From Candidatus Planktophila sp. (GTDB taxonomy: Bacteria; Actinomycetota; Actinomycetes; Nanopelagicales; Nanopelagicaceae), in NCBI GenBank assembly GCA_009691135.1, contig SHVF01000001.1, forward strand, positions 1-64,000: a stretch of DNA of 64,000 bases, given 5' to 3'. Within the stretch, counting starts at the first letter, position 1. Every line of letters begins with the position of its first letter. A program made the translations under genes and the position numbers. Positions 7,590 to 9,735 of this stretch are shown in pieces. The notes beneath the pieces were generated by a model. The model was not told the DNA's origin. It made no database searches and worked only from the letters and a program-made list of their open reading frames with translations.

Positions 7590-8192
7590 TCAGTTGCCAG
7601 GAACGGCATCTGGGGAGATGACCGCTTGGGCGACCTCTTTCATAGTCAGACGGCGATCCATCGCAGCCCTTTGAATCCAAGAAAACGCTTCTGGCTCGGA
7701 AAGATTAAGGGCTTGCATCAAGATTCCCTTAGCTCGATCAATGCTCTTGCGCGTCTCAAGTCGTTCATGTAGGTCAGCAACTTCATCGGCAAGGCTTCGC
7801 ATCTGCAAATGTCTACTAATTGCAATTTCGATAGCCGGCACTAAATCTCCAATCGAAAATGGCTTTACAACGTAGGCCATGACGCCAGCATCGCGTGCTC
7901 TTTCCACAAGTTCGCGTTGTGAAAATGCTGTCAACATCAATACCGGTGCAATGGCAATAATTCTTTCAGCGGCCGAAATACCATCAAGGATCGGCATCTT
8001 CACATCAAGGATCGCTAGATCTGGTTTATGTAATTGCGCAAGTTCAATCGCTTGCGCACCATCTGATGCTTCTGCGACGACTTCGTAGCCTGCTTCAATT
8101 AACATCTCAACTAAATCCATGCGAATCAACGCTTCATCTTCGGCAACTAAAATTCGGATCGCAGGTTTTAGATTGGCGCTATTGGTACTCAT
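7590..8192 (-). CDS. response regulator with C-terminal ANTAR RNA-binding domain (PdtaR/AmiR-NasT type)
   Basis: Receiver domain (ILVAEDEALIRMDL, LAILDVKMPILDG, VMLTAF, YVVKPF) plus ANTAR-like tail (LETRKSIDRAKGILMQALNLSEPEAFSWIQRAAMDRRLTMKEVAQAVI). Confidence 0.92.
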   Translation of the reverse strand: MSTNSANLKPAIRILVAEDEALIRMDLVEMLIEAGYEVVAEASDGAQAIELAQLHKPDLAILDVKMPILDGISAAERIIAIAPVLMLTAFSQRELVERARDAGVMAYVVKPFSIGDLVPAIEIAISRHLQMRSLADEVADLHERLETRKSIDRAKGILMQALNLSEPEAFSWIQRAAMDRRLTMKEVAQAVISPDAVPGN

Positions 8193-8193
8193 G

Positions 8194-8266
8194 TGCCTCG
8201 AGTCGGATTCGAACCGACACTATGCAGTGTTTGAGACTGCCCTCTCTACCGTTGGAGTACCGAGGC
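8194..8266 (-). tRNA. tRNA with CAA anticodon (Leu by anticodon), short variable region; possible tRNA-like element
   Basis: Reverse complement folds as a cloverleaf: acceptor GCCTCGG/TCGAGGC, D-stem CTC/GAG, anticodon arm GCAGT-CTCAAAC-ACTGC, variable ATAGT, T-arm GTCGG-TTCGAAT-CCGAC, discriminator A; CCA not encoded; 73 nt. Confidence 0.85.
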
Positions 8267-8295: not shown

Positions 8296-9735
8296 TTAAC
8301 GGTAAGCAGGAGCTGCGCCACCCACGGCATCACCTACGCGGTGAACGCGCATCGCATTAGTTGATCCCGGAATTCCAGGAGGAGAGCCAGCGACGATCAC
8401 AACGAGTTCGCCTTCAGTGCACCGCTTAGTACTTAATAACAATGTATCGGCTTGCATAACCATCTCATCGGTGTGTTTAACGACCGGCGTTAACTCAGGC
8501 TCCACTCCCCAGTCCAGCGCCATTCGGTTGTAGGTTCCAATTTCTGGAGTAAATGCCAAGATAGGAATTGGTGAGCGCAGACGCGCAGTGCGTCGCGCCG
8601 AGTCACCGGATTGCGTAAAAGTCACAAGGTACTTTGCACCAACGATTGCACCAACCTCAGTTGCCGCCTTAGTGATCGCGCCACCCTTTGTCTTTGGTGT
8701 TGATTTCATTGGGCGAATCATGTCCATTCCGCCTTGTTCGGTATGCGAAATGATGCGCGCCATGGTTTGCACTGCCTCAATTGCAAATTCACCAACGGAA
8801 GTTTCGCCAGAGAGCATCAAAGCATCAGCGCCATCGAGTACCGCGTTCGCGCAATCTGTTGCTTCGGCGCGAGTTGGACGAGAATTTGTAATCATGGAAT
8901 CTAGCATTTGCGTCGCAACGATTACTGGTTTAGCAGCCTCGCGCGCTAGCTCGATGCAATGCTTTTGTACCAAAGGCACTTCTTCAATAGGCAGTTCTAC
9001 ACCTAGATCACCACGCGCAACCATGATGCCATCGAATGCGTTTACAATTCCTTGTAGGTTGGCGACCGCTTGTGGTTTTTCAATCTTAGCAATTACTGGG
9101 ATGCGGATTCCAACTTCGTCCATGATGCGGTGCACATCGACAATGTCATCAGCGCTGCGCACAAAGGATAGGGCGATGAAATCAGTGCCAGCCTTTAACC
9201 CCCAGCGCAGATCATCCATATCTTTTTCAGATAGCGCTGGAACTGAAACGGCAACGCCCGGCAAATTGATTCCCTTGTTATCACTTACTGCTCCAGGTTC
9301 AATCACCTTAGTAACAACGTCATTGCCTTTTACTTCCACAACTTCGACAGTAACTTTTCCATCATCGATCAGGATGCGATCACCCGGCTTGCAATCCCCC
9401 GGTAGACCTTTGTAGGTAGTACCAACACGCTCTTTTGTACCTTCTACTTCATCCGTTGTGATTGTGAAAATATCTCCACGAGCTAAATCATGTGGACCTG
9501 CTTTAAATCTCGCTAAACGTATCTTTGGACCTTGCAAATCAACCAAGATCGCGATCGGAACACCGGCTTCCTTGGCGGCCTCGCGTACGCGGTCTATCCG
9601 AGCTTGATGTTCTGGATGCCCGCCATGAGAAAGATTTAGCCGAGCCATATTCATGCCAGCTGCAATTAGCTCCCGAACTTTTTCTGGAGAGTCAACCGCT
9701 GGACCCATTGTGCAAACAATCTTCGCGCGACGCAT
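8296..9735 (-). CDS. pyk: pyruvate kinase
   Basis: MRRAKIVCTMGPAVDSPEKVRELIAAGMNMARLNLSHG; GIMVARGDLGVELP; ATQMLDSM motifs. Confidence 0.97.
   Translation of the reverse strand: MRRAKIVCTMGPAVDSPEKVRELIAAGMNMARLNLSHGGHPEHQARIDRVREAAKEAGVPIAILVDLQGPKIRLARFKAGPHDLARGDIFTITTDEVEGTKERVGTTYKGLPGDCKPGDRILIDDGKVTVEVVEVKGNDVVTKVIEPGAVSDNKGINLPGVAVSVPALSEKDMDDLRWGLKAGTDFIALSFVRSADDIVDVHRIMDEVGIRIPVIAKIEKPQAVANLQGIVNAFDGIMVARGDLGVELPIEEVPLVQKHCIELAREAAKPVIVATQMLDSMITNSRPTRAEATDCANAVLDGADALMLSGETSVGEFAIEAVQTMARIISHTEQGGMDMIRPMKSTPKTKGGAITKAATEVGAIVGAKYLVTFTQSGDSARRTARLRSPIPILAFTPEIGTYNRMALDWGVEPELTPVVKHTDEMVMQADTLLLSTKRCTEGELVVIVAGSPPGIPGSTNAMRVHRVGDAVGGAAPAYR

Follow-up and report, generated by a model that had tools for sequence, protein, structure and literature searches.

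The single tRNA gene in the 64-kb stretch of DNA analysed here (the window) very probably encodes a working elongator tRNA that reads UUG as leucine, and is an orthologue of an old Actinomycetota family of class I tRNA-Leu(UUR). In this clade UAA and CAA, the two UUR isoacceptors, belong to class I, and the CUN isoacceptors stay class II. To our knowledge, textbooks treat the long-armed tRNA-Leu as universal outside animal mitochondria. A recent review likewise describes tRNA-Leu as long-armed everywhere except in animal mitochondria (PMC9976931), a rule that the Actinomycetota class I family contradicts. Judged from its sequence, the window gene appears to be a working gene, ordinary within its own genome, and belongs to a widespread architecture that breaks this rule.

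ARAGORN places the tRNA, a tRNA-Leu with anticodon CAA, at 8193-8266 on the minus strand, and the Rfam tRNA model RF00005 gives 54.2 bits at 8194-8266. The gene itself (8194..8266, minus strand) is 73 nt long and does not encode CCA. Taken segment by segment, it reads GCCTCGG TA CTC CAACGGTAGA GAG G GCAGT CTCAAAC ACTGC ATAGT GTCGG TTCGAAT CCGAC TCGAGGC A. The acceptor stem has 7 bp, the D stem 3 bp (C10-G25/T11-A24/C12-G23) and the anticodon and T stems 5 bp each, and the cloverleaf is reproduced by folding. All parts lie on the minus strand: the anticodon, positions 34-36, at 8231..8233; the discriminator base A73 at 8194; and the Leu-type D arm, CTC-CAACGGTAGA-GAG, at 8242..8257, where the 3-bp stem is accompanied by A14, A15, GG and AGA, and pairing of C13 with the G of AGA is possible. 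The variable loop, ATAGT (8219..8223, minus strand), has 5 nt, as against the 10 nt or more of a class II arm. The relatives have the consensus NCAGT, its last base being T48 in 82/82, and ATAGT is one of the loops that occur in the class I set. The first-pass annotation had described this cloverleaf, with its CAA anticodon, discriminator A, D-arm pairs, A14 and 5-nt loop, and the sequence, ARAGORN, RF00005 and the fold confirm each of these elements; its structural reading, in which a Leu-type tRNA carries a variable loop of class I, is borne out by the sequence. The molecule has what is expected of a leucine-inserting elongator, namely a Leu anticodon together with A73, A14, A15-U48, G18G19 and A20a. 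It also has the marks of the Actinomycetota class I tRNA-Leu(UUR) family: a class I loop of the NCAGU type, A9, C12-G23, C13 and the Leu D-loop.

Of the 24 other genus genomes searched, nearly all have the window gene at 96-100% identity. Five genomes from other families of the class have it at 75-89% identity, some of these matches covering part of its length. Every relative found by this identity search was called as a class I tRNA-Leu(CAA) by ARAGORN. The tRNAs of Candidatus Planktophila versatilis and P. lacus are identical to that of the window, and the flanking DNA is ~79% identical to that of P. lacus, which makes the source a freshwater actinobacterium of the Planktophila type. A search of plasmid DNA with the window tRNA gave no match. 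With the viral contigs set aside, 82 distinct class I Leu(UAA/CAA) sequences were used to follow covariation. This set includes three CAA sequences from phage-like arrays in L250, L257 and L269. The four stems are 99.6% paired in these sequences and carry many double substitutions; with the partners shuffled, pairing falls to 75%. The parser required a minimum of pairing, and the double changes are therefore the stronger evidence. The constancy of the D-loop bases and C13, like the minimum pairing, was in part built into the search pattern or the parser and is not independent evidence; A73 and U48, each present in 82/82, were imposed by neither.

The assembly of the window genome is 81% complete and its own gene list has gaps, so complete relatives were used to judge which genes are absent. 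In G014, a complete genome of the genus (a single contig of 1.33 Mb, 99% complete), every one of the 20 amino acids has a tRNA. Leucine has exactly four, of which UAA and CAA are class I and UAG and GAG class II. In another family, the complete genome G091 combines class I UAA and CAA with class II UAG, GAG and CAG. The second, class II tRNA-Leu(CAA) that the first-pass annotation had proposed to look for is present in neither of these two genomes.

The same architecture extends across the class to which the window belongs. A motif search found class I Leu(UAA/CAA) in 162 of 198 genomes and 66 of 76 genera, in a set requested at ≥95% completeness that includes the window's own genome, and the reversed pattern matched nothing in the 198. 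This control, and the 96-100% identity seen across nearly all 24 other members of the genus, place the window gene beyond chance. The equivalent class II motif was found in 56 genomes of the same set. Class II matches in G047 and G142 were discarded as read-throughs from a GAAC upstream of the class I gene; the match at G047:C1:154875-154940 is a mere read-through of a class I UAA gene and a caution for motif-based counts. All 19 other genomes of the window's family have class I genes, with at least two matches each and, among the matches listed, one UAA and one CAA; the motif search found no true class II Leu(UAA/CAA) in these 19. Where both classes could be compared from the matches listed, their anticodons differ in 29 of 29 genomes, 27 having class I UAA with class II CAA and two having class I CAA with class II UAA, so that the short tRNA takes the place of the long one. 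In the other classes of the phylum, 39 of 180 genomes have the class I motif. Short-loop class I tRNAs read UUG and/or UUA in a large proportion of actinobacteria. The class I form is not universal, since 36 genomes of the class are without the motif, mostly members of family f19, which is Streptomyces-like by its bldA gene. The tRNA-Leu(UAA) of one genome of that family (G104) is class II, with a bldA-type sequence. Its CAA gene gave no match in either class with the motif patterns used, and a class II CAA gene is present in three relatives from the same family.

The two classes differ in more than the arm. Class I Leu(UAA/CAA) genes have A9, C12-G23 and C13 where class II genes have G9, G12-C23 and G or A at position 13, although the difference at C13 is partly imposed by the search motif. 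Among 27 distinct class II sequences, G9 is found in 27/27 and position 13 is G or A. The sampled UAA and CAA genes further show a short loop with consensus NCAGU in class I as against an arm of 13-15 nt in class II. The window tRNA, with A9, C12-G23 and C13, departs from the class II core as well as from its arm. Class I and class II sequences separate as two clades, each containing both anticodons, which points to two families rather than a recent deletion of the arm. The proposal that this gene 'has lost' its arm must be divided accordingly: the arm is indeed short, and loss is one possible origin, but class I genes have in common a core signature, spread over several sites, that is absent from class II genes. 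Either the family arose by loss of the arm from a class II tRNA-Leu, or a class I tRNA was recruited to leucine identity. Whole-tRNA similarity to other isotypes revealed no donor or ancestor.

Phages also carry such genes. Matches to the class I Leu(CAA) motif were found in 103 viral contigs (L141-L243), where class I Leu(UAA/CAA) genes number 111 altogether, and no viral class I gene in these contigs lies within 4 mismatches of the window tRNA. Several viral contigs also encode short-loop Leu tRNAs for CUN codons. Three metagenome-assembled genomes labelled Chloroflexaceae (L250), Phycisphaera (L257) and Polyangiaceae (L269) have class I Leu tRNAs in dense arrays of ~30 tRNA genes; these arrays look like phage sequence in the bins, and the three non-actinobacterial genomes were set aside when cellular cases were weighed.

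A joint reading of these observations, to which we give somewhat less than an even chance, is that the UUA and/or UUG box was taken over by a distinct class I-shaped tRNA-Leu lineage of the Actinomycetota that has a core signature of its own. This lineage may have arisen by recruiting a class I tRNA, or by one early arm loss with remodelling of the core, and may have replaced class II genes one anticodon at a time while spreading on phages, leaving two tRNA-Leu architectures per cell.

The window gene lies between two protein genes on its own strand. Upstream, 29 nt away, is pyk (8296..9735, minus strand), an ORF whose product, pyruvate kinase, is 42% identical to E. coli PykF and which is supported by synteny. 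On the other side is an ORF for an ANTAR response regulator of the pdtaR type (7590..8192, minus strand), also syntenic and named from its sequence and from the first-pass annotation; its ATG starts 1 nt after A73 of the tRNA, in frame (window 8190-8194). In 102 loci the CAA gene has pyk on one side and pdtaR on the other, and in 144/153 it adjoins one or both of them; the named syntenic loci include Nocardioides, Nocardiopsis and Streptosporangium. Two metagenome-assembled genomes titled Bifidobacterium breve and Streptomycetaceae (L265 and L266) have a pyk whose product is ~83% identical to the window's protein, and these titles are probably wrong.

A tRNA that departs from the class II rule, in a genome that is 81% complete, might be taken for a decayed or pseudogene tRNA-Leu without its arm, a normal class II gene lying elsewhere; the first-pass annotation had allowed for such a pseudogene, with a standard class II tRNA in relatives. 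This is scarcely credible at all. Every stem of the window tRNA is paired, identity within the genus is 96-100%, compensatory changes run across families, the synteny with pyk and pdtaR is conserved, complete relatives have no class II Leu(CAA), and the complete tRNA set of G014 refutes it. Redundancy has more in its favour and is still unlikely: here the UAA isoacceptor would read both UUA and UUG, leaving the window gene dispensable. U34 tRNAs commonly read G by wobble, the UAA and CAA isoacceptors coexist in the genus, and in this way most reading of UUG could fall to the UAA isoacceptor. Against this, the CAA gene is retained in reduced genomes, and UUG accounts for 322 of the 2002 Leu codons in the window ORFs, where TTA accounts for 456. 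Both isoacceptors are, moreover, class I, so the unusual shape would remain. The 'redundant decoder' of the first-pass annotation finds no support, the complete genus genome having no class II Leu(CAA). The alternative it had considered, that this is the only UUG decoder, essentially holds, save for wobble reading by the UAA isoacceptor, itself class I.

The unusual shape, and a core as similar to the Lys, Arg and Thr tRNAs of the genus as to Leu(UAA), could also indicate charging with an amino acid other than leucine, with UUG recoded or mistranslated. When 25 window proteins were aligned with their E. coli K-12 homologues, TTG at positions in conserved context faced E. coli Leu in 44/83 cases (53%), TTA in 95/170 (56%) and the four CTN codons in 43-48%, so that TTG matches Leu no less often than CTN does. 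Where TTG faces a residue other than Leu, this is most often Val or Ile, and the same holds for the other Leu codons. With TTG at leucine positions and A73, A14 and A15-U48 kept, the mischarged tRNA that had been suggested is unsupported and highly improbable. The complete genus genome has two possible readers of UUG, both of class I, so it is class I tRNAs that insert leucine here. The remaining suggestion, a regulatory tRNA-like RNA, would make the gene chiefly a 5' leader and processing signal of pdtaR, with tRNA maturation freeing a leaderless pdtaR mRNA. The order pyk-tRNA-pdtaR is conserved, and the pdtaR start lies exactly 1 nt past A73, in frame, in 54/70 distinct same-strand loci of the clade; from this arrangement, 3' processing of the tRNA would release a nearly leaderless pdtaR mRNA. 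However, pdtaR is on the opposite strand in other families (61 loci), where the tRNA structure is still kept, and the window gene is the only dedicated UUG tRNA. A main regulatory role is not indicated and very unlikely, while a side effect of the tRNA on pdtaR is possible.

If the window tRNA is, as we prefer, an elongator that inserts leucine at UUG, a single bacterial LeuRS would have to charge both tRNA shapes. One match to TIGR00396 over the cut-off was found per genome in 6/6 genomes. A 2023 review lists A73, the A15-U48 pair, G18G19, A20a and D/T-loop contacts as leucine identity elements in E. coli, where leucylation is reported not to depend on how the long arm is folded or on its sequence, and minimal tRNAs without the arm are still charged; for Aquifex, U8-A14 is reported to play a part (PMC9976931). 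One enzyme could serve both shapes because it would read the bases that are kept, A73, A14 and the hinge between the D- and T-loops (A15-U48, G18G19, A20a), and would disregard the long arm; E. coli LeuRS is reported to do so. SerRS reads the long arm. The missing arm should make the window tRNA a poor substrate for that enzyme, and escape from SerRS is a possible advantage of the short form.

The Actinomycetota thus offer a natural experiment at the level of a phylum, in which one LeuRS must serve short- and long-armed tRNA-Leu. The role of the arm in recognition by LeuRS, rejection by SerRS, modification and attack by tRNA-targeting toxins becomes directly testable. For annotation, such genes should not be flagged as pseudogenes or isotype conflicts. 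The class I tRNA-Leu genes themselves are surely already in tRNA databases; a search of the open-access literature, with most subscription journals outside it, found no statement of the phylum- or class-wide pattern.

Comparison with known systems sets the window tRNA apart from each of them in some respect. With the bacterial class II tRNA-Leu, such as Streptomyces bldA tRNA-Leu(UAA) and those of E. coli, it shares the Leu anticodon, the 3-bp D stem, A14, A15, GG, AGA, U48 and A73, and presumably the LeuRS; it differs in having a 5-nt loop instead of 13-15 nt, A9 instead of G9, C12-G23 instead of G12-C23 and C13 instead of G or A. The tRNA-Leu(UUR) of animal mitochondria is likewise class I, without a long arm, and is reported to take its identity from A14 and A73 (PMC9976931), but the window tRNA is bacterial, chromosomal and well paired, and its kind stands beside class II tRNA-Leu in the same cell. 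Allo-tRNAs (PMC7609411) are also bacterial and of unusual class, some with Leu-type anticodons; they have altered acceptor and T stems (8/4 or 9/3) and can insert Ser, whereas in the window tRNA the acceptor stem (7 bp) and T stem (5 bp) are of normal length and the variable loop is short. Closer to home, the tRNA-Leu(TAG) of a Mycobacterium tRNA cluster (PMC6582537) is actinobacterial and has a short variable loop. That gene is an extra isoacceptor beside a normal class II copy; the window gene is core and syntenic and has no class II counterpart. For M. tuberculosis, the passages of PMC11541572 that deal with this species mention long loops in passing, with no distribution, anticodon rule or identity analysis, and give as long-armed Leu tRNAs only tRNA-Leu-2, -3 and -5, without comment. 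By omission, this set fits two class I UUR isoacceptors, which presumably belong to the same family as the window tRNA.
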